DNA of 64,000 bases from an uncultured Acidimicrobiales bacterium (GCA_951813325.1 OX638350.1:124001-188000), one strand, 5' to 3'. Shown: positions 2-17,596, counted from the stretch's first letter. Notes: generated by a model not told the origin, from the sequence alone. Numbers and translations are program-made.

Positions 2-1507
2 CCACAAACGATTTCTCCCGAATCCACCCCGGCTGACGACACCCCGCCCGAATCCACCCCGGCCGGCGACACCCCGCCCGAATCCACCCCGGCCGGCGAC
101 ACCCCGCCCGAATCCACCCCGGCCGGCGACACCCCGGCCGGCGACACCCCGGCCGGCGACACCCCGGCTGGCGACACCCCGGCCGGCGACACCCCGGCTG
201 GCGACACCCCGGCCGGCGACACCCCGGTGCCCCGGGATGTCGCCGGCAACATCATCCCTCCCGAGGTGGTGCCGACCGTGGCTGCCGATTCGAGGTTCTC
301 GATCATCGTGGTCGATGCATTCGCCGACGGTCCCGCAGGCGCCGAGGTCGCAGATATCGACGGCGATGGCGACCTCGACCTCATCGTCAACTCCTTTGGA
401 TGGCGGGGCGTCGACCCCACCCCGGTGCAATTCCCGCCGGGCTCCCTTACCATCTACCTCAATGGCGGCGGTGGGCTGCACGACTGGACTCCGGAGCATG
501 TGATCACCCGGGCCGACGGCGATTACTTTCCCAACGAAGCCCTTCCTCATGACATCGATGGCGACGGCGACCTAGATCTGCTGGTGAGCGGCGGCTTTTT
601 TGTATGCGAGTTCAACCTGGAACTGGGACCCTGCGGCGCCCTGTTCTGGTTGGAGAACAGTGGGGGAGACTGGGTTCGCCGAGATATCGTTCCCCGCGGA
701 TCACCGCACTTTTACCACCGCGCCGAGTTCGTCGACATCGACAGTGATGGAGTTGACGATCTGATCACCGTGGCCGAGACGCTCGACGACGCCGAGGCCC
801 AGTGGTTCAAGGGCACCACAGAGACCAATCGATTCGATTCGGTGCCACGGGTCATCGGTCGGGGCGGCGGAAGCCTCCCAGTCGTCCATGACGTGGACGG
901 CGATGGCGACATGGACTTGGCCTCCGGCCAGTACTTCTTGGGAGGCCAGTCCTACGTGTGGTTCGAGAACCTCGAGCCGCCATCGACTGCCCGGCCATCG
1001 GGCGTATGGGAGCGCCATGACATCACCGATGCGCAGGGGCGCACCATCCAGCTTTCGGTGATTCCCAACCTGTTCGGAGATGGGACCGACGGCTGGGTGG
1101 GCTCGAACCACGTGCCTGCCCCCGAGAGTCCCGATGACTATGAGGCCGGGATCTACATCATGTCGCCACCCACTGATCCCCGGCTGCCCTGGCAACAGAC
1201 GGTGATCAGCGATGGCATCGAGTCGCGCCCGTCGGTCGGGGCCGCGTTCCAGGCCGCTCCCGGCGTCTTCTCATGGGGAGACGTGGACAACGACGGAGAC
1301 ATCGACTTCACCGTGTCCGGCGACGGCGACGACCGTGTCTTCTGGTTCGAGCAGGCGACACCCGGCGAGTTTGTGCAGCATGTGCTGGCCGAGTCGTTCG
1401 GACAGGCGGCCGGAGGAGCGGTCGCCGACCTAGACGGCGACGGCGACAACGAAGTCGTCTTCACCAGCTATGAGACCCACGAGGTGCTGATCTTCAGCCT
1501 GTCGTGA
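2..1507 (+). CDS. FG-GAP/VCBS repeat propeller protein, 5' partial
   Basis: The reading frame is open to the left edge of the window, so the true start lies outside. A GTG at 227 would be a possible internal start but would cut off the in-frame PESTPAGDTP stalk. The body has at least six FG-GAP-type blades with calcium-binding D-x-D-x-D-G cores, such as DIDGDGDLDLIVNS, DIDSDGVDDL, DVDGDGDMDL and DLDGDGDNEV. This predicts an extracellular seven-bladed beta-propeller on a Thr/Pro-rich stalk. Proteins of this build usually act at the cell surface in adhesion or carbohydrate binding, but the ligand cannot be predicted. The last 14 bases overlap the convergent monooxygenase gene. No signal peptide is visible because the 5' end is missing. 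Confidence 0.8.
   Translation, partial: PQTISPESTPADDTPPESTPAGDTPPESTPAGDTPPESTPAGDTPAGDTPAGDTPAGDTPAGDTPAGDTPAGDTPVPRDVAGNIIPPEVVPTVAADSRFSIIVVDAFADGPAGAEVADIDGDGDLDLIVNSFGWRGVDPTPVQFPPGSLTIYLNGGGGLHDWTPEHVITRADGDYFPNEALPHDIDGDGDLDLLVSGGFFVCEFNLELGPCGALFWLENSGGDWVRRDIVPRGSPHFYHRAEFVDIDSDGVDDLITVAETLDDAEAQWFKGTTETNRFDSVPRVIGRGGGSLPVVHDVDGDGDMDLASGQYFLGGQSYVWFENLEPPSTARPSGVWERHDITDAQGRTIQLSVIPNLFGDGTDGWVGSNHVPAPESPDDYEAGIYIMSPPTDPRLPWQQTVISDGIESRPSVGAAFQAAPGVFSWGDVDNDGDIDFTVSGDGDDRVFWFEQATPGEFVQHVLAESFGQAAGGAVADLDGDGDNEVVFTSYETHEVLIFSLS
17..226 (+). repeat. PESTPAGDTP-coding tandem repeat
   Basis: Four 30-bp units (17-136) encode PESTPAGDTP and are followed by six 15-bp units (137-226) encoding AGDTP. 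All are in the same frame as the downstream propeller protein and contain no stop, so they are its low-complexity N-terminal linker. The 15-bp unit is the second half of the 30-bp unit, which points to stepwise slippage or unequal exchange. Unit-to-unit differences are single bases (gct/gcc, gac/ggc). Confidence 0.9.
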
Positions 1508-2705
1508 AGACGCCGACCTCCTCGAGCTCTGCGCTCATGGCGTGCACTGCGTTGATCATGCTGGCCTGGAGCATGTAGGCCCGGGCCTCATCAGGAGCGG
1601 CTGCTGTGGCGGCCAAGTGGTCGAGAGCCCGTTGGCGGGCGGCGCCGTCGGGGGCGGCCAGGCTTTGGGCGTTGTCATGGGTATGCCGTCTGACGTAGTC
1701 GATAGCCAGAGCCCTCCGCAGGTCGGCGTGATGAGCTAGGCGATCGGCCCCTATGTCACCCCGCAGCACTGCGGCCAACGACGCCCCCAGCAACACCGCA
1801 TCGTGGATGCCTCCGTTCATGCCCATGCCGCCCAGCGGATTGTTGATGTGGGCGGCATCGCCCATCAAGACCACCCGACCGACGAGAAATCGGTCGGCCA
1901 CTCGCTGGTGGACCCGATAGATCGTCCGATGGGCGACGTCGTAGGGCTCAGAGCGGTGCACAATGCCGTTGAGCCTCCTCTGGACGCTCGGATCGCTGAG
2001 CGCCTCATCGTCGCCCTCGCCATCGCCCACCGGGAACAGTGCTCGCCAGAGGTCCAAGGTTCGAAGCAGAACCAGCCAATCCTCGGGATCGGAGATGTAG
2101 TTGACGTAGGCCAAGTCGTCGAAGTGGTCGGCCATCTCGAAGGGAGTGGACAGCACCAAGTAGCGATCTTCGTAAGTCATGCCGTCGAACCCCAGGCCCA
2201 GCGATTTGCGCACTGCGCTGGCTGCGCCGTCGGCGGCCACCACTGCATCGGCGACCAGCGTCTCGCCGGAGGCCAGATGGGCTGCGGCGGTATCGCCGTG
2301 ATCGACGGCACCCACCACCTCAGCACCGAATCTGACGGCGACATTGGCCATCGAGCGGAATCTGTCGAGCATGATCTCACACAGCTTGTACTGCTCGCAC
2401 TGAAGCCGAAACGGGTGGTCGGTCACGTCGTCCAGCATGCCGAGATAGAAGTCGGCCACCACTCCAGCGCGCCGGTCCCGATAGGCGAACCGGGGGGCTA
2501 TCAAGCCCCGCTGGACCATCTCGTCGACCATGCCGAAGCGGTCGAGCAGGTCGAGTGTGGCGGGGTGGAACGTCGATGCCCGCAACTCGCGGGGCAACTC
2601 GGGAGCCGCTTCCAGCAGCGTCACGTCGACGCCGCCCAGAGCCAGCTCAGCGGCGGCGACGCACCCGACCGGTCCGGCCCCGACGACAATGACGCGAGGC
2701 GGCAT
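1494..2705 (-). CDS. FAD-dependent aromatic monooxygenase (PHBH/UbiH type)
   Basis: This 403-residue protein has the family's three fingerprints: the dinucleotide motif GAGPVG at residues 8-13, a DG motif (AADGAASAVRKSLG) near 160, and GDAAHINNPLGGMGMNGG near 295, which binds the FAD ribityl chain. Members hydroxylate phenolic or N-heteroaromatic rings using NADPH and O2, and a few open pyridine rings. It lies 3 bp downstream of the arylmalonate-decarboxylase-like gene on the same strand, so the two are almost certainly co-transcribed and probably act on one aromatic acid. The substrate cannot be assigned. The 3' end overlaps the convergent propeller gene by 14 bp. Confidence 0.85.
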   Translation of the reverse strand: MPPRVIVVGAGPVGCVAAAELALGGVDVTLLEAAPELPRELRASTFHPATLDLLDRFGMVDEMVQRGLIAPRFAYRDRRAGVVADFYLGMLDDVTDHPFRLQCEQYKLCEIMLDRFRSMANVAVRFGAEVVGAVDHGDTAAAHLASGETLVADAVVAADGAASAVRKSLGLGFDGMTYEDRYLVLSTPFEMADHFDDLAYVNYISDPEDWLVLLRTLDLWRALFPVGDGEGDDEALSDPSVQRRLNGIVHRSEPYDVAHRTIYRVHQRVADRFLVGRVVLMGDAAHINNPLGGMGMNGGIHDAVLLGASLAAVLRGDIGADRLAHHADLRRALAIDYVRRHTHDNAQSLAAPDGAARQRALDHLAATAAAPDEARAYMLQASMINAVHAMSAELEEVGVFTTG

Positions 2706-2708
2706 CAG

Positions 2709-3455
2709 TCAGAATTCGCGCAGCATCATCCCGTGGCCCACGAACTGGTCGTCGATGTCCAGCGTGCGCAGGGCATGCCACAGGCAGATGGCGTTGATGG
2801 CCAGCACCGGCTTGCCCAGCCAGCGCTCGGCCTGGTCGGCCACCTCCACCATGGACAAGTTGGTGCCGCACTGGACGATGGCGTCGATGTCGTCGCCGTC
2901 GAGGTCTTTGAGCACTCCGACAAGGGTCTCGGGGGTCACATCGGCGATGGAGGTGGCCGAATCGCAGCGCAGCCCGCAAACCCGCTTCACATCGAAGCCG
3001 CACTCGGTGAAGTAGCCGTACACCTGCTCGTCGGCTGCCGGCTGGTAGGGCGTCAGGCAGGCGATTCGCGACACGCCGAGCCGCTCCAAGGCCGCGTTGC
3101 AGGCCGCCGCCCCCGATGTGATGCCGACGTCACCGGCGGTTGCCGCCACTCGAGCCTGGAATGCGGCATTGCCCTCCTTGCCTCCCCAGAAAGTCTCGGC
3201 CGACATCCCCATGAGCAGATGATCCGGTTTGCACGTCATCAGGTCGCGCACTGCGGTAGGGATGGTCTGGCGGATCAGATCCAGAAAGTGGAGAAAGGCC
3301 TCGTCGCTGCTCAGGTCGGGGGCCTCCACCAAGAATCGCCCACTGTGGAACGTGACCCCTGGGGGCCGCACCCGGGCGAAGTCGTGCTCGACGACGGTGT
3401 TGGTCGAAGGCACGATGACCCCGATCTTGGCCCGGTAGCCGACAACATCAGGCAT
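2709..3455 (-). CDS. Arylmalonate decarboxylase / maleate isomerase family protein
   Basis: A 248-residue member of the Asp/Glu racemase superfamily. The N-terminus (IGVIVPSTNTVVEHDF) and overall length fit the maleate isomerase/arylmalonate decarboxylase branch. The usual first catalytic cysteine is replaced (LLMGMSAETFWGG), while the second is present in IVQCGTNLS. One cysteine with a G-x-S at the first site is the pattern of arylmalonate decarboxylase rather than of two-cysteine maleate isomerases or racemases. ATG 3455 is preceded by GAGAGGGA at good spacing. First gene of an operon with the FAD monooxygenase. A decarboxylase or isomerase of an aromatic or dicarboxylic intermediate is likely, but the exact reaction is open. 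Confidence 0.75.
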   Translation of the reverse strand: MPDVVGYRAKIGVIVPSTNTVVEHDFARVRPPGVTFHSGRFLVEAPDLSSDEAFLHFLDLIRQTIPTAVRDLMTCKPDHLLMGMSAETFWGGKEGNAAFQARVAATAGDVGITSGAAACNAALERLGVSRIACLTPYQPAADEQVYGYFTECGFDVKRVCGLRCDSATSIADVTPETLVGVLKDLDGDDIDAIVQCGTNLSMVEVADQAERWLGKPVLAINAICLWHALRTLDIDDQFVGHGMMLREF

Positions 3456-3481
3456 AGGCGTCCCTCTCGATTCGCTCTATT

Positions 3482-3498
3482 GCGGAATGATGTTCCGC
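3482..3498. promoter_or_regulatory. IclR-like palindromic operator
   Basis: GCGGAATGATGTTCCGC is a perfect 6-bp inverted repeat with a 5-bp centre, about 27 bp upstream of the AMDase-like start. The GGAA-N5-TTCC layout resembles sites bound by IclR-family regulators of aromatic catabolism. No IclR gene is present in this window, so the regulator is an inference. Confidence 0.5.
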
Positions 3499-3793
3499 TC
3501 TAAGGAACACTAGCCGTCACCTTCAAGCCCCACCCTTCAATCTGCATTCCACACCAGGTTGATGATTGTTCAGTCAACAGCCCATGGCGCGGCTGGGCCA
3601 GAAGCGGTTGGAGGCATCACTTCTCGCGGAGTCAGTGATCAGGTAGAGACCTGTCCGGCAACTCTTTCAGATACCGCTCGATAACGACGAGGAGCTTGCA
3701 CGGGGGCCAGCCGGTCGGTCGCTCCTGGCTTCCTCAGCCGCCTAGAAGCCGGTCGGGTTCCTTATTGCACCACTGTTCGGATATTTTCGCCCC
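3499..3793. other. Intergenic region between divergent units
   Basis: About 295 bp between the monooxygenase operon and the helicase fusion. I see no coding signal, RNA gene or clear repeat here. It must hold promoters for both directions, but I could not pick out convincing -35/-10 pairs. Confidence 0.5.
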
Positions 3794-6700
3794 GTGGCGA
3801 TTTCTGAGTACGTGATCTTCGATTTGGAAGCCAACGCCGACCATACCCACCCGCCGCAGCACGAGATCATTGAGATTGGTGCTGTTTTGGTCCGCGACGG
3901 CGAGGAGACCGATCGATTCGAGACCCTGGTTCGTCCCACCCGACGTCTGCGCCCTCAGACTCTGAAACTCACCGGCATCACCCAAGAGATGGTGGATGAT
4001 GCACCCCGACCAGCGGAGGCATTGCGCTCCTTCCGCAGTTTTGTGGGGAACCACCCACTGATCGCCCACAACGGGCACGGGTACGACTTTTTGCTCCTTG
4101 ATGCCGTTGGGGAGCAGATTCCCGACTACCAGCGGCTCGACACATTGGAACTAGCTCACATCGTCTTCCCTCGAGCGGGAAAGGGCATTGTCGGCAACAT
4201 CGACGGCGGAATACCGCCGAACGGCCGCAGTCTGGACGAGTTGGCCCGACACTTCTTCGGAGACCAGCCCCGGGGTGCTCACCGCGCTCTCGACGATGCT
4301 TTGCTCTTGCATCGAGTACTGCTGCGGCTGTTGGCCGCCATGGATGAAGGCTCCCCAATGCGTCGTCTCCAACGTTGGGTTCTCCTAGCCGGCAACCACC
4401 CGTGGGCGGCATTCTTGTCGTCGCAATCTGAACGCATAGCTCTGGCGGATGTCGTGCCGCTTCCCGAGCCGCCGCAACCAAAGCCGCCGGCAAGGCCATT
4501 CAGTCCTGATGCTGTAACCGAGATGTTCCAAGACGGCGGCACACTGATGGGCCAATACCGAGAGCCCCGCAAGCAGCAAACCGAGATGGCAGAACTCATT
4601 GCCGACACCCTGCATTGTGGCGGTCGACGGCTAATCGAAGCTCCTACCGGAACTGGCAAAACTCTGGCCTATCTGGCTCCGGCCATCACATATGGCGCGG
4701 CCGCCAAGCGGCCCGTAGTTGTGGCCCCACATTCCAAAGTTCTTCAAGACCAGGTGATGGCGACCCTAGAAGAGCTTCGAGAAGATCTCGGCCCGTTCGT
4801 CTATGTCTTGCTCAAGGGCATGGGCAACTACATCAGCCTGGACTCGCTGGACGGAGAATTGGATGCCCTTGCCTCGGCGAACGGGGCTGCCGGGGCGTCA
4901 AGCGAAGGACCGCCTCAACCCGCCTTCTCCCATTCCGGGATCCTGGTCCTCGCCATTCTCTGCGGCTGGGTGGCGCAAACCAGAACCGGCGACTGGGACG
5001 ATCTCCGCACCGGCGCCATCGAGAAGAGGATTCCCGAACTGCGACGCATCCGCCGACTGCTCAGCGTGGCCGAGGCACCGGGCGGTCCGCCCAAGTTGCC
5101 GCTCGACCACCGGGACTTCTTTCGGCGGGCCCGCGATCTCTTCCCCCAAGCTGATGTGGCCGTGCTCAATCATGCACTGCTGGTGACTTGGGATGACTGG
5201 CTGCTCTATTCCAAGCACCTGATTCTGGACGAGGCCCACAATCTGGAGGACGCCGCCACCGACGCGCTCTCCGACGAAGTGTCCCAAGGAGACATTGCCG
5301 ATCTATGCGATTCCGTCTGGGATCCTTCGAGACGCAGCGGGGCGGTGGTCAGCGTCGCCCGAGCGGCCAGATGGCCGATCGGCAATGAGTGGCTGGACGC
5401 CATTCGCCGCGCGACCGAGGAAATCCGATCGGCATCTGCCCACTTCGGCTCGGCCTTCGTTCATTACTTGCGAACTCGCACTGGTGCCGGGCAAGAGGAC
5501 GCGTACCCGGTGTCATACCGGATAAGGAAGGGCATCGACACCCGCCATCCCGACTACAAGCAACCAGTGCTGGGCGCAGGCCGCCACCTCCAAGACGCTT
5601 TGATCAATCTGGCCGATGCGTTCAACGATGTGAATCTGCCCGAGAATCTGGCCCCCGGCTATCGGCGATACCGCTTGGAGGCCCAGATCAGACGGCTGGG
5701 GAGGCAGAGCCGGGATGCGGCGAGGACCCTCGGACACGTGCTGTGGGCCTCCAAGCCCGAGGAGTGGATCGCCATCGGCGGGACCCGCCACACCGAAGAC
5801 GGCTGGAAATGGGATCTGAAACGCGCCCCTGTCTCCGTGGCCGATGATCTGCGTTCACTCTGGGGTTCGCTGGACGCCACCGTGCTCACCTCGGCCACCC
5901 TGAGAGTGGGAAACAGCTTCAGCTACATCCTCAACACCCTGGGTTTGGGCAGCGCCGATCCCCGCTCCCTCGACAGCCCCTTTGCATGGCTGACCGAGAA
6001 TCACATGGTGCTGCGAACCGACTATTTGCCCGCTCCCCGCTCAAGGCTGATGGAGGAATTCAAGACGTCGGCGGCCTCAGAGATTCCCCGGCTGCTCACT
6101 CTCACCGACGGTCGGGGACTTGTCCTAATGGCTGCTCGGTCACGGATGGAATTCGTTCGGGACCATGCTCGGCCATTACTCGACAACGAGCAGATCCCGC
6201 TGTTGGCCCAGGGCGATGACACCGCGCCTGCGCTGGTCGAGCGGATGCGGAGTGAGTTGGCCACCAGTTTGATCGCTCTGCGCTCATTCTGGGAGGGAGT
6301 CGACATTCCCGGCGAAGCCCTGAGCCTGCTGGTCATCGAGAAGTTACCTTTTGACTCGCCTGCCGATCCTGTGGTTGGGGCCCGAACAGAGATGATGGAA
6401 CGTCGCGGCAAAGACCCGTTCGCCGACTACATCGTGCCCAAAGCGGCTATCCGTTTCGCCCAGGGCGCAGGCCGGTTGATCCGCACCGAGCACGATCGCG
6501 GGGTCACGGTGATCTTGGACAACCGGCTGTGCCGAGCCGTCCCCTATCGGGATCAGATCCTCGGCACCCTCCCCGGCCCCCCTCGACTAAAGCGGGCCAA
6601 CCATGCAGAGGTCGCCTACCGGCTCATCGCCGACCATCTCGGAGATGTGGTTCTCGACGAGGCCATGCGCCAACGGCTCCAAGCGCTACCCAGCGCCGAC

Positions 6701-8803
6701 CCGTGGTCTGCGCTCGCCGACATGGAGCTCTCCGAGGCTGACCTTGACGACGAGACCAGGATCGATCAATGCCTCGACCGGGTTCGAGAGCGTTTCGGAT
6801 TCAAGCAGTGGCGACCTGGCCAGCGAGACACCATGATCGGCTTTCTGCGGGGCGACGACATGCTGGCCGTGCTTCCCACCGGATCGGGCAAGTCGGTCAC
6901 CTTTCAGATCCCGGCCCTGCTGTCTCCCGGCGTGACCCTGGTCATCTCCCCCTTGGTGGCCCTGATGAACGACCAAGCTGAGAACCTGCGCGCCAAGGGT
7001 GTGGCCAAAGTGGCCACCATCCACAGCGGCATACCCCAAGGGGAATGGCGGGATATTTTGCGGCGAGCGCGTCGAGGCCACTACAAGCTGCTCTATGTCA
7101 GCCCTGAGCGGCTCTGGTCACAAGAGTTTGTGAGCGAGCTGTCCAAAATCGGGGTGTCGCGGATCGCGGTTGACGAAGCCCACTGCATCTCCCAGTGGGG
7201 TCACTCCTTTCGACCGGAATACGCCGCCATCCCCGACGCCATGAAGCGGATCGCCGGACACCCCCGACCTCCGATCCTGGCCGTCACTGCTACTGCCACC
7301 CCAAGGGTTCGAAACGAGATCGCCGAGCTGCTTGATCTGGGCCTGAAAGACCAGCCGGTGGCCCTGTCGCCCGACCGACCGGAAATGCTCTATTACGCCG
7401 AATCCTGCGACAACAGCAACGACCGGGATCTTCGAGTGGTGCAGATCGTGGATGCGTTCCCCTTTCAACCCGCCATCGTCTATGTGCCCACCCGCCGACA
7501 TGCCACGGGAATCGCCAACCTGCTGAGGTCGGCCGGCCACAACGCGTTTGCCTACCACGGAGGCATGGACCATCCCCAGCGTCAGCACATCGAAGACGCC
7601 TTCCGCCACGGTGAGATTGATGTCGTGGTGGCCACCAAGGCGTTCGGGATGGGCATCGACAAGCCCGACATCGCCTTGATCGTCCACTTGGAGATGCCCG
7701 CCTCCATCGAAGAGTACGTCCAAGAGACCGGTCGGGCAGCCCGGGGCGCCGCCGAAGAAACGGGACCGGAAACCGGTACCGCGGTCCTATTGACCATGCC
7801 AAGGGATTGCTCAATCCACCGGATATTCATCAAGAACTCGGCACCCCGCATCGAGCAGGTACAGCGGATCTGGTCGCAACTCACGACGGGCACTCATGCC
7901 TACGATCCAGAGGAACTGGCCGAAAGAGGCTACGACGGCGACCCCGAGTCGGTGAGCACCGCCCTGGCTGTCCACTACCTCCAAGAACATGGTGCGGTGA
8001 AACGGCATCCAGACACCGTCTGGAAAGGGCGGATTGCCGTAGTCGGAGATACCGAGCGCATGGTTGTAGAGCTGGAAAGAGAAGATCAGGAACTAGCTCA
8101 GCGGGCTCGGCATATCCTGGCTCTAGCCAAAAGACAAGACAGCGATGAGTACCATGCGCCAACCTGGGCCCAGAGTCTGGCCCGAAAGCCCTGGGATATT
8201 GCCGCCGACCTGTTTGAGCTGAACAAACGGGACATCGTGGGCTTCACTGCTTGGAAACACGCCTGGGTGCTGGAGAGGCTCGACGCCAACCCCCCGTGGC
8301 CGGCAATCGAGCAGTCAGCCGAAGACCGCAGGCGCTTGGCACAAGAAAAATCCAACCAAGCGAAGGCTCTTGCCCATACCTCCAAAGGGTGCCGGCGAGA
8401 GAAGATGCTCGAGTACTTGGGGACGAAGGCACCCGAGTCCTGCAAGCGGTGCGATCTATGTGTCGAGCTTCCCAGGCCATGGGCCGACGGCCTCCTGACC
8501 CGAGAGGGCCTTCTCGAATCACTGCCGGTCAACGCCATCATCACAGAGCTGGTGGAGAGCACCTCTGGAGAGCGCTATTCACACCAGCGCATCGTCAACA
8601 CCCTGGCCGGACACAGTGGCGGACAATTCGAGCTTCCCGAGCGCTTGGCCAAGCACCCTGCTTTTGGGAGATTGGCCTTCCTCAACCGACAAGGAGTCGA
8701 GGAGGCCATCGAAGGGCTGATTGAAAAAGAGGTCCTCATCAAGCGGTCGGGGGAAGTCAAGGGAACCCGATCCCAGTACCTGGAGATAGCCGAACACGAC
8801 TGA
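3794..8803 (+). CDS. DEDDh exonuclease-DinG-RecQ triple fusion helicase
   Basis: A 1669-residue fusion of three DNA-processing modules. Residues 1-180 are a DEDDh 3'-5' exonuclease: FDLEAN (D10, E12), AHNGHGYDF (D98) and HRALDD (H163, D168). Residues about 240-960 are a DinG-type SF2 helicase with APTGTGKT (283-290) and ILDEAH near 480. The cysteines that normally hold the 4Fe-4S cluster of DinG/XPD are missing; the region after KGMGNY has only one Cys. Residues about 1005-1560 are RecQ: LPTGSGKS near 1030, VDEAHCISQWGHSFR near 1125, ETGRAARG, and a zinc site (CRREK, then SCKRCDLC). GTG 3794 is chosen because it begins directly at the exonuclease fold. It probably forms a two-gene unit with the next helicase. 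Repair or anti-phage roles are both possible. Confidence 0.85.
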   Translation: MAISEYVIFDLEANADHTHPPQHEIIEIGAVLVRDGEETDRFETLVRPTRRLRPQTLKLTGITQEMVDDAPRPAEALRSFRSFVGNHPLIAHNGHGYDFLLLDAVGEQIPDYQRLDTLELAHIVFPRAGKGIVGNIDGGIPPNGRSLDELARHFFGDQPRGAHRALDDALLLHRVLLRLLAAMDEGSPMRRLQRWVLLAGNHPWAAFLSSQSERIALADVVPLPEPPQPKPPARPFSPDAVTEMFQDGGTLMGQYREPRKQQTEMAELIADTLHCGGRRLIEAPTGTGKTLAYLAPAITYGAAAKRPVVVAPHSKVLQDQVMATLEELREDLGPFVYVLLKGMGNYISLDSLDGELDALASANGAAGASSEGPPQPAFSHSGILVLAILCGWVAQTRTGDWDDLRTGAIEKRIPELRRIRRLLSVAEAPGGPPKLPLDHRDFFRRARDLFPQADVAVLNHALLVTWDDWLLYSKHLILDEAHNLEDAATDALSDEVSQGDIADLCDSVWDPSRRSGAVVSVARAARWPIGNEWLDAIRRATEEIRSASAHFGSAFVHYLRTRTGAGQEDAYPVSYRIRKGIDTRHPDYKQPVLGAGRHLQDALINLADAFNDVNLPENLAPGYRRYRLEAQIRRLGRQSRDAARTLGHVLWASKPEEWIAIGGTRHTEDGWKWDLKRAPVSVADDLRSLWGSLDATVLTSATLRVGNSFSYILNTLGLGSADPRSLDSPFAWLTENHMVLRTDYLPAPRSRLMEEFKTSAASEIPRLLTLTDGRGLVLMAARSRMEFVRDHARPLLDNEQIPLLAQGDDTAPALVERMRSELATSLIALRSFWEGVDIPGEALSLLVIEKLPFDSPADPVVGARTEMMERRGKDPFADYIVPKAAIRFAQGAGRLIRTEHDRGVTVILDNRLCRAVPYRDQILGTLPGPPRLKRANHAEVAYRLIADHLGDVVLDEAMRQRLQALPSADPWSALADMELSEADLDDETRIDQCLDRVRERFGFKQWRPGQRDTMIGFLRGDDMLAVLPTGSGKSVTFQIPALLSPGVTLVISPLVALMNDQAENLRAKGVAKVATIHSGIPQGEWRDILRRARRGHYKLLYVSPERLWSQEFVSELSKIGVSRIAVDEAHCISQWGHSFRPEYAAIPDAMKRIAGHPRPPILAVTATATPRVRNEIAELLDLGLKDQPVALSPDRPEMLYYAESCDNSNDRDLRVVQIVDAFPFQPAIVYVPTRRHATGIANLLRSAGHNAFAYHGGMDHPQRQHIEDAFRHGEIDVVVATKAFGMGIDKPDIALIVHLEMPASIEEYVQETGRAARGAAEETGPETGTAVLLTMPRDCSIHRIFIKNSAPRIEQVQRIWSQLTTGTHAYDPEELAERGYDGDPESVSTALAVHYLQEHGAVKRHPDTVWKGRIAVVGDTERMVVELEREDQELAQRARHILALAKRQDSDEYHAPTWAQSLARKPWDIAADLFELNKRDIVGFTAWKHAWVLERLDANPPWPAIEQSAEDRRRLAQEKSNQAKALAHTSKGCRREKMLEYLGTKAPESCKRCDLCVELPRPWADGLLTREGLLESLPVNAIITELVESTSGERYSHQRIVNTLAGHSGGQFELPERLAKHPAFGRLAFLNRQGVEEAIEGLIEKEVLIKRSGEVKGTRSQYLEIAEHD

Positions 8804-8832
8804 AAGTTGCTTGAAGTGTAGGTTGGCACGCT

Positions 8833-10605
8833 GTGGCCAGCCTGATTCCCGAGAATATTCCCAGCCGAAACGACATCCCCGAAAGGCTCAGAACTGCTGC
8901 CCGCCTGTTGCGCGACGCGACACCCGGAGATGTCGTGGTGTCGCTTGAGCGAACCGGCGACGACGGGGCCAGCGCGCAAAGGCTTGACCTTGGTTATGAG
9001 GATTCTGACTTCGGCACCAGGTCAATCCCGTATCTGATCGTATTCGACCCGGCGGCGGGTGTGCTTGTATTGGAATCTCCCAGTCTTCGCTCCCCAAGCG
9101 CTGCCAAGCGAGGTCGCTTTCGCAAGCAGCGGCAGGTAGGTCTAGACCAAGCTCAAAGTGCCATAATCGCCAGGGTCAACGGCTTGCAGGACAAGATCAA
9201 GTCGCTGCTGGTAGCCCGTGCCTTGGCGTTGCCCGATGTGAGCCGCAACCAGCCTTTGGCGTTGGCCGACGAGAAAACTCCTCGGCTCTTTCTTGAAGAT
9301 TTCGACGAAGCCAACCTTTTGACAGTGGTTCGGCAAATTCTCGGCGGGCAACGGCCCCCACTCGACAACAAGGGCCAAGCATGGGTGCGGGCCACCATCA
9401 ATCCCAACATCGTGATCGGCCAGCAGGGCCAAATGTTCGAAACTGCCCCCCAGACGTCTGAGGAGATGATTCGGGTTCTAGATCTGGCCCAAGAACGCCT
9501 AGCAGAACACCTCGGTCCGGGCTACCGCCTCATTCGTGGAGTGGCCGGGAGCGGCAAGACCCTGGCCCTCACCCACCGAGCCCGCTACATCGGCCAGAAC
9601 ATGCCTAGCTGGCGTCTGCTAGTGGTTTGTTTCAACAAAGCCCTTTCACAAGCTCTTGCCGAGGAGTTAGCCGCCGTCCATAACGTTGAGGTGTTCACCA
9701 TCGACTCTCTGGCCTACAAAGTCATTCGTGCAGCCGGGCGTATCCCGACCACAGGCAACGGCGACGCGGCCTGGGATGCTCGACGCTCAGAGGCAATTGA
9801 AGCTGCCGCTACTCTCCCAACTTCGGAGAAATTCGACATGGTTCTCGTAGATGAAGCCCAGGATCTAGGAAATTCTGGACTTGCCCTAGCCTGGGCAATG
9901 GGCAGACACGAACTCGGGGTGGAGCAGCGGCACTTCATCGTTGCTCTGGACAGCGCGCAGAACGTCTACCGGCGCAAGATGAACTGGAACCCCCCGGGTT
10001 TGACCGCCCGTGGACGGTCAACGATTCTCCGAGAGAACTACCGCAACACAAAGCAGACGCTCGACTTCGCGTTGGGAGCAATCGCCGGAATCGGCCAGCC
10101 CAGCGCAGGCCAGGCATCTTCAGATGATCTAGACACCTTCGTCATGCCCGAAGCCGCATTGCGACATGGGAAACCCCCGGATCTTCAGGTGTGCCCCGAT
10201 CTCAGAACCGAGGCTCAGACGCTGACAGAGAAAACAGCCGAACTCTTCCACAACGGGGCCACACCCGACGACATTGTCATCATGTCGGGATCGAGAGAAT
10301 TGCGGATCACCTTGCAGCGGACGCTGAGAGCAAAGGGAATTGAGGCACTCGACGCACAGCAGGAGCGGGAACAACTGGTGTCGGTGCGCGGCAAGATACG
10401 AGTGGCGACCCTCCAACTGCTGAAAGGACTCGAATACCCTCACGTCCTGATCGGCGGCGTCAACGACATCTGGGTCAACGACGACGAAGACGAGACTCGT
10501 CAACGACTGCTCTACGTTGCCATGACCCGGGCGACCGAAACGTTGACCGTCACCTATTCCGGCGACGGACCTATGGGCCGTCTACTACAGGCGGCCCCCC
10601 GCTGA
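8833..10605 (+). CDS. UvrD-like SF1 helicase with NERD-like N-terminus
   Basis: A 590-residue SF1 helicase: Walker A GVAGSGKT (about 237-244), LVDEAQDLG near 338 (Walker B), RENYRNT (motif IV region), LLKGLEYPHVLI, and YVAMTRATETLTVTYS near the C-terminus (motif VI). The first 180 residues look like a nuclease-related domain (IPYLIVFDPAAGVLVLES), but the E-x-K expected at a NERD active site reads ESPS, so nuclease activity is doubtful. It starts at GTG, 29 bp after the DinG-RecQ fusion, and is very likely co-transcribed with it. Together they would supply two opposite-polarity motors plus an exonuclease. A DNA-repair or defence role is an inference from context. Confidence 0.8.
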   Translation: MASLIPENIPSRNDIPERLRTAARLLRDATPGDVVVSLERTGDDGASAQRLDLGYEDSDFGTRSIPYLIVFDPAAGVLVLESPSLRSPSAAKRGRFRKQRQVGLDQAQSAIIARVNGLQDKIKSLLVARALALPDVSRNQPLALADEKTPRLFLEDFDEANLLTVVRQILGGQRPPLDNKGQAWVRATINPNIVIGQQGQMFETAPQTSEEMIRVLDLAQERLAEHLGPGYRLIRGVAGSGKTLALTHRARYIGQNMPSWRLLVVCFNKALSQALAEELAAVHNVEVFTIDSLAYKVIRAAGRIPTTGNGDAAWDARRSEAIEAAATLPTSEKFDMVLVDEAQDLGNSGLALAWAMGRHELGVEQRHFIVALDSAQNVYRRKMNWNPPGLTARGRSTILRENYRNTKQTLDFALGAIAGIGQPSAGQASSDDLDTFVMPEAALRHGKPPDLQVCPDLRTEAQTLTEKTAELFHNGATPDDIVIMSGSRELRITLQRTLRAKGIEALDAQQEREQLVSVRGKIRVATLQLLKGLEYPHVLIGGVNDIWVNDDEDETRQRLLYVAMTRATETLTVTYSGDGPMGRLLQAAPR

Positions 10606-10629
10606 AGCAGTTTCAGTGGCTTGCTTCAG
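10602..10629. terminator. Hairpin between convergent genes
   Basis: CTGAAGCA and TGCTTCAG form a perfect 8-bp stem around a 12-nt loop, spanning the gap and the ends of the helicase and Fic genes. It sits where a shared bidirectional terminator is expected. There is no T-tract, so it is only a candidate. Confidence 0.45.
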
Positions 10630-12140
10630 GGCAGTTTGAGACGGATGCCGCCGATGGCGGCATCGTCGGGATCTTGCAGGGCGTTGGTGGCCTCCATCTG
10701 GCCATTGGAGGCTGCCCAATCCCCCCAGGGCATCGCGGCTGTCCACCGCCAGACAAAGCTCATCACTCTCACTAACGCGGATACGTCACCTCCCTCTGAT
10801 GCTGAAGTGCGTCGCAGGCAGGCGGTGTACTCGTTGCGGTAGACGCTGGGAATGATGATGCGGGCTGCATCCACCGCCGAAAGCTCCGCGTTCATCATCA
10901 CTCGGGCCACCCGCCCATTCCCATCGGTGAAGGGATGCACCTCCGACACCACCACCATCAAATACAGCGCCCGCAGAAATCCGGCGGGGACCGACGAGGC
11001 CAACTCGAAGCCACGGCGCAGCGTGCCCTCAACCAGCGTGGGATCGACGAACAAGTAACCCCCGACTTGGTTGGGCTCTGTCTTCCACCGGCCCGGTCCC
11101 ATCTCGGGTCGACCGCCCAAGATCATCCTGTGCCGCTCGCAGAGGTGGCTGATCAGCTTCTCGGGGTCTTCAGAAGTTGCCTTTCGACCCAAAGTGTCGG
11201 CAACGCAGCGGTAGGTGCCCAAGATGTCGTGGCCATCTGCCGGCCGAGAGGCCGGAGGCTGCTGGGAGTCGATGATCCTTCGGGCTTCTGCCACCGTGAA
11301 GACAGTGCCCTCGATGTAGTTGGAGAAGTAGCTCTCGAAGAAAAGCAGCGCTTCTCCTTCGGATCCGGCCGGCAGCCAGTCAGGCACATCCGGGTCGTCT
11401 TGTTGGGCCAATCCCTGGATCAGCCGGTTGAACATCTCCACTCGCGGGTCATCCCAAGCCCGGCCATGGGTGAGGGCTTGCAGGAGGCGTCCTGCGGTGG
11501 GACGCAGCGGCTGGTGACCGGCCAACTGGTCGAACAAGCGGTTGATCTTCTCCACTCGATCAGCCACGCCCATTGACTCGGCCAAGGCGACGGCATCCTC
11601 TTGCAGTCGCAGCATTCGCTCTGAGCCCCAAACGATAGCCTTGCCGGCCAGCCAGTCCTCCAGCTCCGCCAACGACAGGGTTCGAGGGGTCCGGCCGCCC
11701 CGACCGTGGGTGATCGCCAGGTTGTCGACCAAGATGCGGGCCTGGCTGGACATCCTCAACCCCTCAGCCCACGGAGGGTCTTCAACTGGTTCGGCAATTG
11801 GGCCACCGGAACGGATTTGCACTTCCATTCCCGGAAGCCGGATGGACTTGCGGTCACCAGGGGCAGCCATGAAGATGCACCCTCCGTCCACGCCGCCATT
11901 TTCGGCGGCAGAGCGGTCCACAATGACCGCACCGGGAAGCATGCGGCCCAAGATGAGCCAGCGGTTCGCCACCACGATCTCTGCCGGGTCGCTGACGAGA
12001 TCAGCAGAGTACAGCCGGGGTGCCAACCGGCGGATCCGACCTCGGGCCACGGCCCTGCTGAGGGTGTCCCGCGATGCCACATCGTCGAAGAAGACGGTAT
12101 GCACCTCTGTCGGCCAGGGGGTGGACGCTCGGCGGGCCAT
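10626..12140 (-). CDS. Fic-domain protein with AbiEi-like N-terminal domain
   Basis: A 504-residue protein. The C-terminal half carries the catalytic Fic loop HPFTDGNGRVAR near residue 400, a match to HPFx(D/E)GN(G/K)R, so AMP- or other NMP-transfer to a target protein is expected. Upstream, SNYIEG (about 271-276) fits the autoinhibitory (S/T)xxxE(G/N) helix, so the enzyme should hold itself inactive. Residues 1-60 (DVASRDTLSRAVARGRIRRLAPRLYS) look like the winged-helix N-terminus of AbiEi antitoxins. This suggests a DNA-binding self-regulating toxin, or a Fic protein that has captured an antitoxin domain. It is convergent with the helicase pair. Target and trigger are unknown. Confidence 0.8.
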   Translation of the reverse strand: MARRASTPWPTEVHTVFFDDVASRDTLSRAVARGRIRRLAPRLYSADLVSDPAEIVVANRWLILGRMLPGAVIVDRSAAENGGVDGGCIFMAAPGDRKSIRLPGMEVQIRSGGPIAEPVEDPPWAEGLRMSSQARILVDNLAITHGRGGRTPRTLSLAELEDWLAGKAIVWGSERMLRLQEDAVALAESMGVADRVEKINRLFDQLAGHQPLRPTAGRLLQALTHGRAWDDPRVEMFNRLIQGLAQQDDPDVPDWLPAGSEGEALLFFESYFSNYIEGTVFTVAEARRIIDSQQPPASRPADGHDILGTYRCVADTLGRKATSEDPEKLISHLCERHRMILGGRPEMGPGRWKTEPNQVGGYLFVDPTLVEGTLRRGFELASSVPAGFLRALYLMVVVSEVHPFTDGNGRVARVMMNAELSAVDAARIIIPSVYRNEYTACLRRTSASEGGDVSALVRVMSFVWRWTAAMPWGDWAASNGQMEATNALQDPDDAAIGGIRLKLP

Positions 12141-12365
12141 ATTCAGACAATATCGGCCCGAATGCTCAATTACACGGCGTTTTGTTGCTCAATGAACTGT
12201 ACCTGTCCAGCGTTTGTGTCTTGAAATCCCATTAACCTGGCATTTTCACGCTGAATAACCGACCGAAAACGCTTCAACCCTGCCAATTCTCCAGGCAATG
12301 GGTGGGTGTTGGTGCCCAACCGGCAGGCACCGACCTCCCAGGGTTGGCTATAGTGCCGGGCACCT

Positions 12366-12439
12366 GCGGGTGTAGTTCAGTGGCAGAACCCCAGCTTCCC
12401 AAGCTGATGACGCGAGTTCGATTCTCGTCACCCGCTCCA
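12366..12439 (+). tRNA. tRNA-Gly (anticodon CCC)
   Basis: A 74-nt cloverleaf with CCA encoded. The acceptor stem GCGGGTG/CACCCGC pairs fully. The D arm is GTTC/GAAC, the anticodon loop is TTCCCAA (anticodon CCC, reading GGG), and the T arm is GCGAG-TTCGATT-CTCGT with one G-T pair. The first anticodon-stem pair is a C-A mismatch. The next protein gene starts 2 bp after the CCA. Confidence 0.95.
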
Positions 12440-13785: not shown

Positions 13786-15369
13786 ATGCTAGAGATCAGG
13801 CGGTGTCTTTTCCCGGTCATGAAGACGATTTTCGTCTTTTTGGCTGTTTTGGCTGTTGCGGTGTCTGCTTGCGGCGGAGGCGGCGACTCCGGCACGGCTC
13901 CGGCGGTGGTGTTGGCTGGGACCCCCGATGGCGAGCCGGCGCCGCCAGCGACTGTGCCCGCGCCGCGAGCGCAGATCACCGCGCCTGCGGCGCCGGGGCT
14001 CGCGGCCGCTCCGACCGCGGCGCCAGAGCCCGCACAGGTGCCCACTGCTGGGGCCGTTTCCGGTCCCACTCCCGCTCCGACCGCCGCCCTTTTCCCAGAG
14101 GAACCTGAGGACGCGGTTTGCGGTCCAGCAAGCGTGGCGGTGGACACCGACGGCGACGGCGTGCTCGACGACTGCCTGGAGGACTTCGCGCTCAACCTCA
14201 CCCCGGCTCCCACGGCGAAACCCGATCCGGTTGTGCAGCCGACCCCGGCTCCCACGGCGAAACCCGATCCGGTTGTGCAGCCGACCCCGGATCCCACGGC
14301 GAAACCCGATCCGGTTGTGCAGCCGACCCCGGATCCCACGGCGAAACCCGATCCGGTTGTGCAGCCGACCCCGGATCCCACGGCGAAACCCGATCCGGTT
14401 GTGCAGCCGACCCCGGAGCCGACGGCGAAACCCGATCCGGTTGTGCAGCCGACCCCGGGGCCGACGGCGGAGGCTACTCCGGTTGTGGAGCCGACCCCGG
14501 AGCCGACGGCGGAGGCTACTCCGGTTGTGCAGCCCATCGTTGTGGCCGACTATTCGACAGTGTGCGCGGATCCGGCTCCTGCGGGCGAGCCCGGCCTGGG
14601 CACGGGCTCCGACGGGGGGCCTTGCGCCGTCCGGCTTTTGACCCGCGGCGACCTGCTCGCCACCGGCCTGTTCGATGTCGGCCGCCCCGGCAGCCCCGCC
14701 GGCGGCCGGGGGCTCCTCCTCCAACGCGCCGACTCCATGCCGAACGTTCCCGACGCCGAGGCGCTGGCGCACGTCACCGACTGCGTGCGCGCCGAGCCTC
14801 CCGGCGGCTACCCCGGCGCCGGCGGGAGGCTCGGCGCCGGCGGCTGGAAGCGGATGCCCGACGAGGCGACCACTTTCCAGGCGTGCAATGTGTTGTGGCA
14901 GATGGCGGCCGGGCCGATCAACCACGCCGGGATGCGACCGGAGGCCCGCTGCGTCTACGAGACGTTCGCCCTGTTCCACCTGTGGGGCATCTACTCCCTC
15001 GACCACACCCCAGGGGACTGGCAGCGGTACGGGTGGGGCGACGTGTGCTATTCGTGGATCGACCCCGAGCCCGACCGCCCGTTTTTGGAGAAGTGCCACT
15101 GGCTGTACGGCCACTACATCGGCCAAAAAGAGGCCGCGGGCCGCATCTGGGCCTACGACCAGTGCCGCGCCTACACCGACAACGACACGACGGACGAGTG
15201 GCTCGCCGCGCGCGGCAACTGCGGGGACCGCTACCTGCTGGTGCTGATGGCAAACCTGTTCATGCACCGAGAGGCCCGCGAGCTCGGCCTGCTGCCCGAC
15301 AACGAAGGAACCGTCGACTACCTCACCCGCCGCCCCACCGACGGGACCGGCGCTTATCGGCTGTGCTGA
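13786..15369 (+). CDS. Pro/Thr-repeat lipoprotein with Cys-rich domain, copy 1
   Basis: A 527-residue putative lipoprotein. The start ATG 13786 has an ideal AAGGAGGT five bases upstream. A short basic lead is followed by a hydrophobic segment and the lipobox VSAC, then GGGGDS, so the mature protein is probably lipid-anchored at residue 29. Residues about 45-250 are an Ala/Pro/Thr stalk with eight 14-residue repeats (PTPDPTAKPDPVVQ). The C-terminal 270 residues form a domain rich in Cys and aromatic residues (about 12 Cys; DVCYSWIDPEPDRPF, EKCHWLYGHYIGQKEAAG, DQCRAYTDND) that I do not recognise. It is followed after 36 bp by the large Cys-rich protein and is probably co-expressed with it. A paralog sits at 17.6 kb. 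Confidence 0.8.
   Translation: MLEIRRCLFPVMKTIFVFLAVLAVAVSACGGGGDSGTAPAVVLAGTPDGEPAPPATVPAPRAQITAPAAPGLAAAPTAAPEPAQVPTAGAVSGPTPAPTAALFPEEPEDAVCGPASVAVDTDGDGVLDDCLEDFALNLTPAPTAKPDPVVQPTPAPTAKPDPVVQPTPDPTAKPDPVVQPTPDPTAKPDPVVQPTPDPTAKPDPVVQPTPEPTAKPDPVVQPTPGPTAEATPVVEPTPEPTAEATPVVQPIVVADYSTVCADPAPAGEPGLGTGSDGGPCAVRLLTRGDLLATGLFDVGRPGSPAGGRGLLLQRADSMPNVPDAEALAHVTDCVRAEPPGGYPGAGGRLGAGGWKRMPDEATTFQACNVLWQMAAGPINHAGMRPEARCVYETFALFHLWGIYSLDHTPGDWQRYGWGDVCYSWIDPEPDRPFLEKCHWLYGHYIGQKEAAGRIWAYDQCRAYTDNDTTDEWLAARGNCGDRYLLVLMANLFMHREARELGLLPDNEGTVDYLTRRPTDGTGAYRLC
14200..14535 (+). repeat. Eight 42-bp coding repeats
   Basis: Eight exact-length units encode T-P-x-P-T-A-K-P-D-P-V-V-Q-P in the stalk of the copy 1 lipoprotein. 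The last two vary (AEATPVVEP). Because 42 is a multiple of three, gain or loss of units changes stalk length without breaking the frame. Confidence 0.95.
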
Positions 15370-15405
15370 ACGCCGCCTTGTTGAACGAGAACAGAACGGA
15401 CAGCG

Positions 15406-17535
15406 ATGGCCGACGAACAAAACACTGAGCTTCTGCAAGACATTCGAAGTTCTGCCTCTGGCGCGGAACACGCTGAAGGGAAGGCGCGGCAAAACGACGT
15501 TCCTCTTGCTGGGTGTCCGAGATGGCTGAACCGCCGCACCCTTGCGATGCTGCTGCTGTTGTTCGCGCTCGCGGCGATGGCCAACACCTGCGAGGACGAC
15601 GACGGCAACCCGATCCCCCACGACCACTGCTGGGACGGCACCGCGGCCGCGGTGGGCGGCTGCCCGACTGAGCCCACCCCTGAGCCCACCCCCGAGCCGC
15701 TCCCCCCGTGCCCCTATCTGTCCCACAGAGACACCCCGTCCGGCAGCTGCCACAGCCTAATGACACAATGCACTATCGGGACTTTCGTTTTGCATGACGA
15801 TCCGTGCCCAACCCCAGCACCAGACGACCCCGACGAGGACGACCCCGACGAGGACGACCCCGACGAGGACGACTCCGACGACCCCGAGGAGAACGATCCC
15901 GACGTGGATCCGATTGGGTGGGCGGAGTCTCCTCCGGCGATCACGTGCAACAATTTGCACTGGCCGGCCGGGACCAGTTGCGTGGCCGGCTCGACGCCGA
16001 CCACAGACGAACAGGGGATCATCACCTACGTGATCGACTACGACGAGATCCCATGCCAGTCGCAGTCGGCGACATGGCCGGACTGTCTGGGCTCGGATTA
16101 TGAGGGCGGCACCGGCACGGTCGGAGACGTGGATTGCACGACGTGGACGCCCGCGGACCACGGCGACCATTCCCACACCTGGTATCCCCACGACGGTGAC
16201 GGCAACGGCGAGTACGACACCTGCACTTATCCGCACGAATGCGGAACCACTGCGAATGTCCACAATTGCGAAGAGACCCCGACTCCGAACCCGACGCCGA
16301 CGCCGACTTCGAACCCGACTTCGAACCCGACGCCGGACCCGACGCCAGACCCGACGCCGACTGCGACTCCGGTTCCGGGGGTGCCGACGGGGTTGACGGT
16401 GACGTGTTTCGGGTGGCAGGAGCCAGCCGGCGATTATGGGGACGGCTATTACACGGTGTTCGTGAGCTGGGACGCGCAGTCCGGTGCGGGCGTGGTGTTC
16501 GAGTTGGTGGGCGATTTGGGCTATGTCGGGGCTGATGCGATGCACACCGGTGTGGTGGCGGCTGTGGTGGTGGCTGATCCCGACGACGAGGATCTGGAGG
16601 TTCTGGCGCCGGTGACGGTTGGGGTTCGGGTGCGGGCGACGAGCGCGGGGGTCACCAGCGCGTACACGGCGCTGGCCCAGGACACGTGCTCGCCGCCGCC
16701 GTGCCCCGCCGCGGTGCCCGCCGCGGTGGCCGCCGAGGCGCGGGCCAGATACGGGGATCTGCGGTGGGAGGGATGGCTGGGCGCCTATGACGGCACCCAG
16801 GCCCAAATAGCCCAGTCGGCGGTGCCCGGCGGCGACCAGACCCTGTTGCCGGCATCGCTGCTGTCGGTGATCGACGGGGTGCCCGACAGCGTGGTGTGGC
16901 TCACCGAGCACGGCCGCGACAACGCAGCGCCCGGGGTGAGCTGGCAATCGGCGCGCGACCCGGAGTCGGGCTGCTCGTGGCGGCTGGACGAGATCAACGT
17001 GGCGTTGCGCGAGCTGTTGTTCACCGACGCCGCCGATTTGGCCCTCGCTGATACCGAGTCGGGCGGCCAGTGGGATTATTGGGCCCAAGCGGTGGACATC
17101 TGGGACGACACGTCGGCCCAACAACAGCAGTACTGGGCGGTGTGGCACGACCGGGGCGCCTACGGCGGCGACGGCGTGCCCGCCGGGTACGGTCTCCCGG
17201 CTCGGTGCGAGACCTCTAGGGGCCCGACAAGCGACGGCCGCGACGACTGCGACATATCGGCGCGGTGCCGGGCCTCAGACGTGCCCGAGGCCACCTTCCG
17301 GAGCACCCTCGAGCGCGCCAGGCGCCCCGACCCGCCGCCGGGCTGTGTGTGGGTCGTGCCCCGCGAGGGGTACTGGGAGTGGTGGATCGAATGGGAGCTG
17401 GTCCCCGAAAGAGACGAGAACTGCGACCAGCCCGACGCGGCCTGCTGGGTCCAGATCGGCCGGGGCATGTCCCGCTTTTTGAAACTCACCGGCCCCGCCG
17501 GACTCATCGAGCTCAACCAACCCGACGACCCCTAG
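15406..17535 (+). CDS. Large Cys-rich membrane-anchored surface protein
   Basis: A 709-residue protein of unknown function. Residues 1-45 are polar, and about 48-65 form a hydrophobic segment (TLAMLLLLFALAAMA) that could be a signal anchor. Then come a Pro/Thr/Glu stretch, an Asp/Glu repeat (DDPDE units, three identical 15-bp copies at 15826-15870), a Cys-containing block, a second Pro/Thr linker, and a beta-rich segment (VPGVPTGLTVTCFGWQE onward) that looks like a fibronectin III fold. A C-terminal domain with many Trp and Cys follows (WWIEWELVPERDENC). It lies in tandem with the lipoprotein gene. An extracellular adhesive or binding role is plausible. A deleted second copy follows the paralogous lipoprotein. 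Confidence 0.7.
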   Translation: MADEQNTELLQDIRSSASGAEHAEGKARQNDVPLAGCPRWLNRRTLAMLLLLFALAAMANTCEDDDGNPIPHDHCWDGTAAAVGGCPTEPTPEPTPEPLPPCPYLSHRDTPSGSCHSLMTQCTIGTFVLHDDPCPTPAPDDPDEDDPDEDDPDEDDSDDPEENDPDVDPIGWAESPPAITCNNLHWPAGTSCVAGSTPTTDEQGIITYVIDYDEIPCQSQSATWPDCLGSDYEGGTGTVGDVDCTTWTPADHGDHSHTWYPHDGDGNGEYDTCTYPHECGTTANVHNCEETPTPNPTPTPTSNPTSNPTPDPTPDPTPTATPVPGVPTGLTVTCFGWQEPAGDYGDGYYTVFVSWDAQSGAGVVFELVGDLGYVGADAMHTGVVAAVVVADPDDEDLEVLAPVTVGVRVRATSAGVTSAYTALAQDTCSPPPCPAAVPAAVAAEARARYGDLRWEGWLGAYDGTQAQIAQSAVPGGDQTLLPASLLSVIDGVPDSVVWLTEHGRDNAAPGVSWQSARDPESGCSWRLDEINVALRELLFTDAADLALADTESGGQWDYWAQAVDIWDDTSAQQQQYWAVWHDRGAYGGDGVPAGYGLPARCETSRGPTSDGRDDCDISARCRASDVPEATFRSTLERARRPDPPPGCVWVVPREGYWEWWIEWELVPERDENCDQPDAACWVQIGRGMSRFLKLTGPAGLIELNQPDDP

Positions 17536-17551
17536 GCCGGCGCCCCCAACA

Positions 17552-17573
17552 GCGCGAACCTGACGGTTCGCGC
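17552..17573. terminator. Perfect hairpin after the surface protein gene
   Basis: GCGCGAACC-TGAC-GGTTCGCGC forms a 9-bp perfect stem with a 4-nt loop, 16 bp after the stop and 23 bp before the next start. It could end the upstream transcript or act as a leader hairpin for copy 2. Copy 1 keeps the right arm but its left arm is altered (TTTCACCAACCC), so the hairpin is not conserved there. Confidence 0.6.
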
Positions 17574-17596
17574 AACCTAGAACAAGGAGGTGTCAG

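Follow-up and report, generated by a model that had tools for sequence, protein, structure and literature searches.

A triple-domain fusion and its helicase partner

The window, a 64,000-nucleotide stretch of a 3.59-Mb genome of an uncultured Acidimicrobiales bacterium (G000:C1:124001-188000), carries two adjacent genes on the + strand, both with a GTG start. The first (3794–8803; 1669 aa) encodes an exonuclease-DinG-RecQ fusion and the second (8833–10605; 590 aa), which follows after a gap of 29 bp, a UvrD-like superfamily 1 (SF1) helicase with a degenerate NERD-like N-terminus. Their orthologues in the genus are 76–95% identical, with dN/dS values of 0.19–0.24 for the fusion and 0.15–0.27 for the helicase, so the reading frames are not due to chance, and both genes are under purifying selection. 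A search that covers GC-rich actinobacterial promoters poorly found no sigma-70-like promoter.

The fusion begins with a DEDDh 3'-5' exonuclease domain (aa 7–173, 3812–4312, + strand as for all domains below; PF00929 RNase_T, E 5e-23). It is followed by a DinG/XPD-like SF2 helicase with a pseudo-Fe-S region (aa ~240–945, 4511–6628; PF13307, NF005981), in which Pfam places Helicase_C_2 (PF13307) at aa 766–925 (E 2e-33). The remainder is a RecQ helicase with a zinc site and a C-terminal winged-helix-like (RQC-like) part (aa ~990–1669, 6761–8800; TIGR00614 at 318 bits, above the family cut-off of 219.8). In Pfam its DEAD and Helicase_C domains cover aa 1008–1317 and RecQ_Zn_bind aa 1505–1556, and the AlphaFold model of this part (pLDDT 84) gave RecQ 4tmu as the top Foldseek match in the PDB (E 4e-30). 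An extra region of ~200 aa that separates the RecQ motor from the zinc site (7751–8389) exceeds the standard RecQ length; it is present in all homologues, and the secondary structure of the model suggests that it is winged-helix-like.

Across 10 aligned homologues no variation was seen in the exonuclease residues D10, E12, D98, H163 and D168, in the Walker A and DEAH boxes of both SF2 motors, or in the RecQ zinc cysteines C1533, C1550, C1553 and C1556. The DinG motor keeps APTGTGKT, DEAH and QGxGRLIR in the Acidimicrobiia rows of the alignment. With its complete DEDDh site, DinG motor and pseudo-Fe-S region the protein belongs to the ExoDinG subgroup, and its motor, four-cysteine zinc site and catalytic core fold make it a RecQ helicase as well. 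An earlier note on this DNA had described three enzymes in one 1669-residue chain; the reading frame, the Pfam domains and the invariant catalytic residues agree with that description. Its remark that the three are normally separate was too strong: the triple fusion is unusual, but the joining of exonuclease and DinG is standard, and a 2005 study had already reported the triple fusion in Thermus thermophilus HB27.

The same note had pointed to the loss of the DinG Fe-S cysteines. The window fusion indeed retains 0 of the 4, whereas the homologues from Thermus and Deinococcus retain all four. None or one is found in the 12 Acidimicrobiia fusions compared, and also in 5 stand-alone ExoDinG proteins from another Acidimicrobiia family; the loss is therefore a trait that the fusion has in common with the lone ExoDinG proteins of the class, and we rejected the idea that it is peculiar to the fusion. 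The definition of the subgroup covers both Fe-S and pseudo-Fe-S (pFeS, 0–1 cysteine) members, which makes the window protein a pFeS type, and S. aureus DinG is a Fe-S-less ExoDinG (PMC11981726). As the S. aureus protein works both as a 5'-3' helicase and as a 3'-5' exonuclease (PMC12345164), absence of the cysteines does not imply a lost motor, and the proposal that the loss marks a departure from the standard mechanism was not upheld.

The second protein consists of an N-terminal NERD-like domain without the catalytic E-x-K (aa 1–205, 8833–9447), supported by a paralogue alignment, a 14-row alignment and the helix-strand order of the model, and an SF1A helicase core (aa 213–590, 9469–10602; PF00580/PF13361). 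Both UvrD motor domains, N and C, were detected in 14/14 orthologues, which places the protein in the UvrD/Rep SF1A group and bears out the earlier description of an opposite-superfamily helicase 29 bp downstream. In the AlphaFold model (pLDDT 79; plasmid-derived rows were left out of the input) a NERD-like helix-strand order precedes a clear UvrD core, which VIA-align 2 aligned to UvrD with Z 35. The top whole-length Foldseek match was human SLFN11/SLFN14 (E ~1e-18), ahead of UvrD; since VIA-align 2 gives the UvrD core the better score (Z 35 versus 29.6) and the full-span Foldseek rmsd is large, we record this match and make no family claim of it.

Loss of E-x-K, also put forward earlier, is real and family-wide: the alignment shows the motif in none of the 14 orthologues, and none matches Pfam NERD (PF08378) at E 0.1, whereas a paralogue (L031) keeps it as EAK and matches at 1.6e-11. 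PD-(D/E)xK enzymes can relocate catalytic residues, and the preserved helix-strand order of the model would fit a NERD-like domain whose catalytic lysine has shifted position and which retains nuclease activity, in which case the second protein would be an active nuclease-helicase. We consider the chance of this very slight, as the invariant columns within the first 140 residues of the 14-row alignment (R12, V36, L68, P73, G76 and P134) include no E-x-K-like pair.

Pairing, mobility and surroundings in Acidimicrobiia

The pair is carried by marine, often sponge-associated bacteria, the named relatives being Acidimicrobiia MAGs. We found the full fusion in 7/100 related genomes; the helicase was present in the same seven (7/7), adjacent wherever the contig allows. 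A search of named genomes starting from the helicase alone returned 10 orthologous loci, 10/10 immediately 3' of a fusion, and in a sample of the class the fusion, with its RecQ part, occurred in 12/395 genomes, with the adjacent helicase in 12/12. With genomes that turned up in several searches discounted (matched on contig coordinates), this amounts to ~22 loci, and the helicase lies next to the fusion at every one with a readable downstream side. Within Acidimicrobiia the pairing is thus obligate, and the two-gene order that the earlier note had singled out for checking is conserved. The pair itself is sparse, being found in 5/22 genomes of the genus and in ~3% of sampled Acidimicrobiia genomes.

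Comparison with one relative (G007) revealed an empty site. Its flanks are 96% and 92% identical to the window, and window positions 3517 and 10617 lie just 19 bp apart there; it therefore lacks just these two genes, a cassette of ~7.1 kb (3518–10613, + strand). In G019 and G009 both the pair and the neighbouring Fic gene are absent, and window 3518–3521 is joined to 12342, just before a tRNA-Gly. In G021 the pair sits in a different core interval, beside a gene reading as aspS, whose core flanks are nearly adjacent in most members of the genus. Such presence/absence polymorphism at otherwise syntenic sites is that of a mobile accessory cassette. A fixed core-genome position, which would have spoken against the earlier reading, was not observed, and the pattern of presence and changing position led us to reject a core repair operon. 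As a separate observation, 12342–12439, just 5' of tRNA-Gly(CCC), is a variable spot, with the downstream flank kept in most genus members and a differing upstream side.

Decay is also evident: a 208-aa helicase remnant is found in G785, a fragmentary second copy in G076, and disrupted fusions at L048 and L049. The GC content is 0.61 in the pair versus 0.66–0.68 in the flanks. At the cassette ends we detected no direct repeat of at least 7 bp and no target-site duplication, only one 7-bp inverted match; without terminal or direct repeats the cassette cannot be recognised as a transposon in its own right. As a control we used the stand-alone ExoDinG (~1000 aa, 37–38% identical), which occupies a conserved core position in 5 genomes of one genus of the class, with neither RecQ nor a helicase partner at these loci. 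The fused form is the mobile one, in contrast to this core-fixed relative.

These observations bear on a different account, in which the pair is an accessory repair module: an upgraded ExoDinG acting on crosslinked DNA or stalled forks, with RecQ for fork regression and the UvrD-like partner, spread horizontally through a benefit under genotoxic stress. Every domain has homologues in repair, related genomes carry the lone ExoDinG as a fixed core gene, and in S. aureus the ExoDinG protein acts in the repair of crosslinks caused by mitomycin C and formaldehyde (PMC12345164). However, patchy presence, a clean empty site, decayed copies and a changing position are unusual for core repair, and we regard this account as unlikely, though as the strongest of the alternatives.

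The neighbours change from locus to locus and are not shared. A Fic gene adjoins the pair in the window and in G014, TacA antitoxin, HipA and a WYL regulator are found at L047, PIN/antitoxin pairs at L048 and L052, an IS110 element at L051, and a serine recombinase near the G076 copy, while several loci have core neighbours only (nuo operon, argGH, aspS; reading frames read by eye). The NERD helicase adjoining the pair in G032 is of the active type. No classical defence island was found at the loci examined, and PADLOC matched no system as a whole, only generic helicase models. The earlier note had suggested inspecting the neighbours for defence genes: toxin-antitoxin, Fic, WYL and recombinase genes border the pair at some loci, ordinary core genes elsewhere. 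The pair was found on no phage, plasmid or viral contig: the phage and plasmid collections yielded nothing beyond fusions on Deinococcota megaplasmids and generic helicases of the DinG, RecQ or NERD kind, and on viral contigs RecQ alone matched, with no fusion.

A further alternative is that the two genes belong to the machinery that replicates or stabilizes an integrative element or megaplasmid, the rest of which went unrecognised. Plasmid-borne Deinococcota versions and the recombinase near the G076 copy would suit it, but the empty site removes two genes only, without integrase, att repeat or terminal repeats, and the loci have no neighbours in common, which leaves it a slim chance.

Several other genes were also noted. 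The Fic protein of the window (10626–12140, − strand; 504 aa) has the motif HPFTDGNGR and what may be a class II inhibitory motif, SNYIEGT; its gene is accessory too, being missing here in G019 and G009. Two reading frames at 13786–15369 and 17597–19297 have near-identical signal-peptide-like N-termini and surround a 709-aa reading frame without a Pfam match; stretches of the region 13786–19297 recur ~3.2 Mb into the same genome. Beside the G021 pair lies a 408-aa reading frame (L027, 12859–14085), DUF222/HNH (13E12)-like by eye, with many copies across the genus. The G032 neighbour (L031, 12811–14535) is a second, divergently oriented NERD-UvrD helicase with intact E-x-K, which PADLOC scores as RTasNERD-Hel at 213 bits. 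Finally, at ~2.16 Mb of the window's genome (L262, 9445–19285), a 1767-aa RecQ-UvrD double helicase follows a 1484-aa protein without a Pfam match; as a large RecQ-bearing reading frame recurs across the genus, it looks like core machinery.

Relatives in Deinococcota and known systems

The triple fusion was reported as 'REC_DNA' (DnaQ-DinG-RecQ) on the megaplasmid of T. thermophilus HB27 by Omelchenko et al. in 2005, with the DinG and RecQ parts absent from strain HB8 (PMC1274311). The HB27 protein (WP_011174436) has the same three-domain order and a similar length (1649 aa) and varies between strains; it is ~28–30% identical to the window fusion, keeps the four Fe-S cysteines and is followed by three other genes, whereas a UvrD-like helicase follows the window fusion. 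Related fusions are found on Thermus and Deinococcus megaplasmids, that of HB27 flanked by cas genes of types I-C and III-B, and in Deinococcus actinosclerus the fusion is preceded by a UvrD helicase (Pfam). Conservation of the three HB27 genes (L023, 16960–19858) extends to T. brockianus. The first is coiled-coil-like and weakly resembles JetC/LmuB, and the other two have no Pfam or PADLOC match.

In a RecQ tree the Acidimicrobiia and Deinococcota fusions form one clan against the sampled lone RecQ proteins (94/87), which favours one origin of the fusions; the DinG tree is ambiguous on this point, owing to long branches and an uncertain root. More distant relatives of the helicase follow a DUF3516 helicase in G481 and, in an Ectothiorhodospiraceae MAG (L053), an SF1 gene that resembles MkoA of Mokosh (195 bits). 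The MkoA-like helicase (897 aa) ends in a topoisomerase-type zinc ribbon, and the L053 pair (337–4860) may be a separate two-gene system.

We found no description of the two-gene pair in the open-licence literature and no role assigned to the Thermus protein, and the text of a 2025 DinG review does not mention RecQ (PMC11981726). The findings added here are that the pairing is obligate, that an empty site exists and that the lone ExoDinG, unlike the pair, is fixed; the triple fusion itself was known before.

Among characterized proteins, S. aureus and B. subtilis DinG share the DEDDh exonuclease and DinG helicase, the Bacillales type also being without Fe-S cysteines, but these ExoDinG proteins have no RecQ and no obligate helicase partner, and are chromosomal repair or RNA-quality genes (PMC11981726, PMC12345164, PMC12525004). 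Gabija likewise combines a nuclease protein with a compact UvrD-like helicase, and our helicase profile matched GajB chains. It requires an OLD-family GajA beside GajB, however, whereas the genes adjacent to our helicase are the fusion and Fic, without an OLD/TOPRIM match; the nuclease protein here joins an exonuclease to two helicases. NERD-helicases (PADLOC C3a187, RTasNERD-Hel) also join an N-terminal NERD-like domain to an SF1 helicase, and C3a187 matched the helicase part at 156 bits; the second protein differs in having no NERD catalytic motif and no match to Pfam NERD. RecBCD, AdnAB and AddAB offer a possible analogy, with opposite-polarity or twin motors and a nuclease, but the fusion has SF2 DinG and RecQ motors and a DEDDh nuclease instead of PD-(D/E)xK. 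Human WRN joins an exonuclease to RecQ in one chain without DinG, a resemblance of architecture only.

A possible role in degrading invading DNA

We propose that the pair is a horizontally mobile helicase-nuclease module whose most likely task, as an anti-phage or anti-element system, is the degradation of invading or aberrant DNA, and give this function a probability of roughly 55%. In its favour we count the pairing, the patchiness, the empty site, the second insertion interval, the decayed copies and the fixed lone ExoDinG as contrast, together with the megaplasmid fusions (in HB27 amid cas genes), the bordering TacA-HipA-WYL, PIN, Fic, recombinase and IS110 genes, and the MkoA-like link in L053. 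Against it we count that the pair is absent from the phage, plasmid and viral contigs searched (Deinococcota megaplasmids carry the fusion only), that no whole PADLOC system was matched, that several loci have core-only neighbours, and that every catalytic domain also occurs in repair enzymes.

By family, DinG moves 5'-3', RecQ and UvrD move 3'-5', and DEDDh enzymes degrade 3'-5'. The best reading of how the module might work is RecBCD- or Gabija-like. The UvrD-like partner, its catalytically dead NERD-like domain binding DNA ends, forks or the fusion protein, would open the duplex 3'-5' and load the fusion. The fusion would then engage the duplex with its two motors of opposite polarity which, on antiparallel strands, would travel the same way along it, as RecD and RecB do. 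Fed by these motors, the DEDDh domain would digest the 3'-ended strand, the target being invading DNA. The sequences themselves show the domains, the catalytic residues, the pairing, the mobility and the selection; complex formation, target choice and the antiviral role are our inference, and the polarities come from family knowledge. More specifically, and tentatively, at somewhat less than even odds, the pair could be a two-gene antiviral system made of a three-enzyme protein and a helicase with a dead NERD sensor. It would then be a functional analogue of RecBCD, built on SF2 motors and spread in a minimal cassette, whose fused core was re-partnered in Deinococcota.

If the module does degrade foreign DNA, it would be a defence system built on two opposite-polarity SF2 motors in one chain and common enough to test, in which selection has maintained a dead nuclease domain, probably for sensing or docking. 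The Thermus DnaQ-DinG-RecQ protein described in 2005 (PMC1274311) would then have a function as well.
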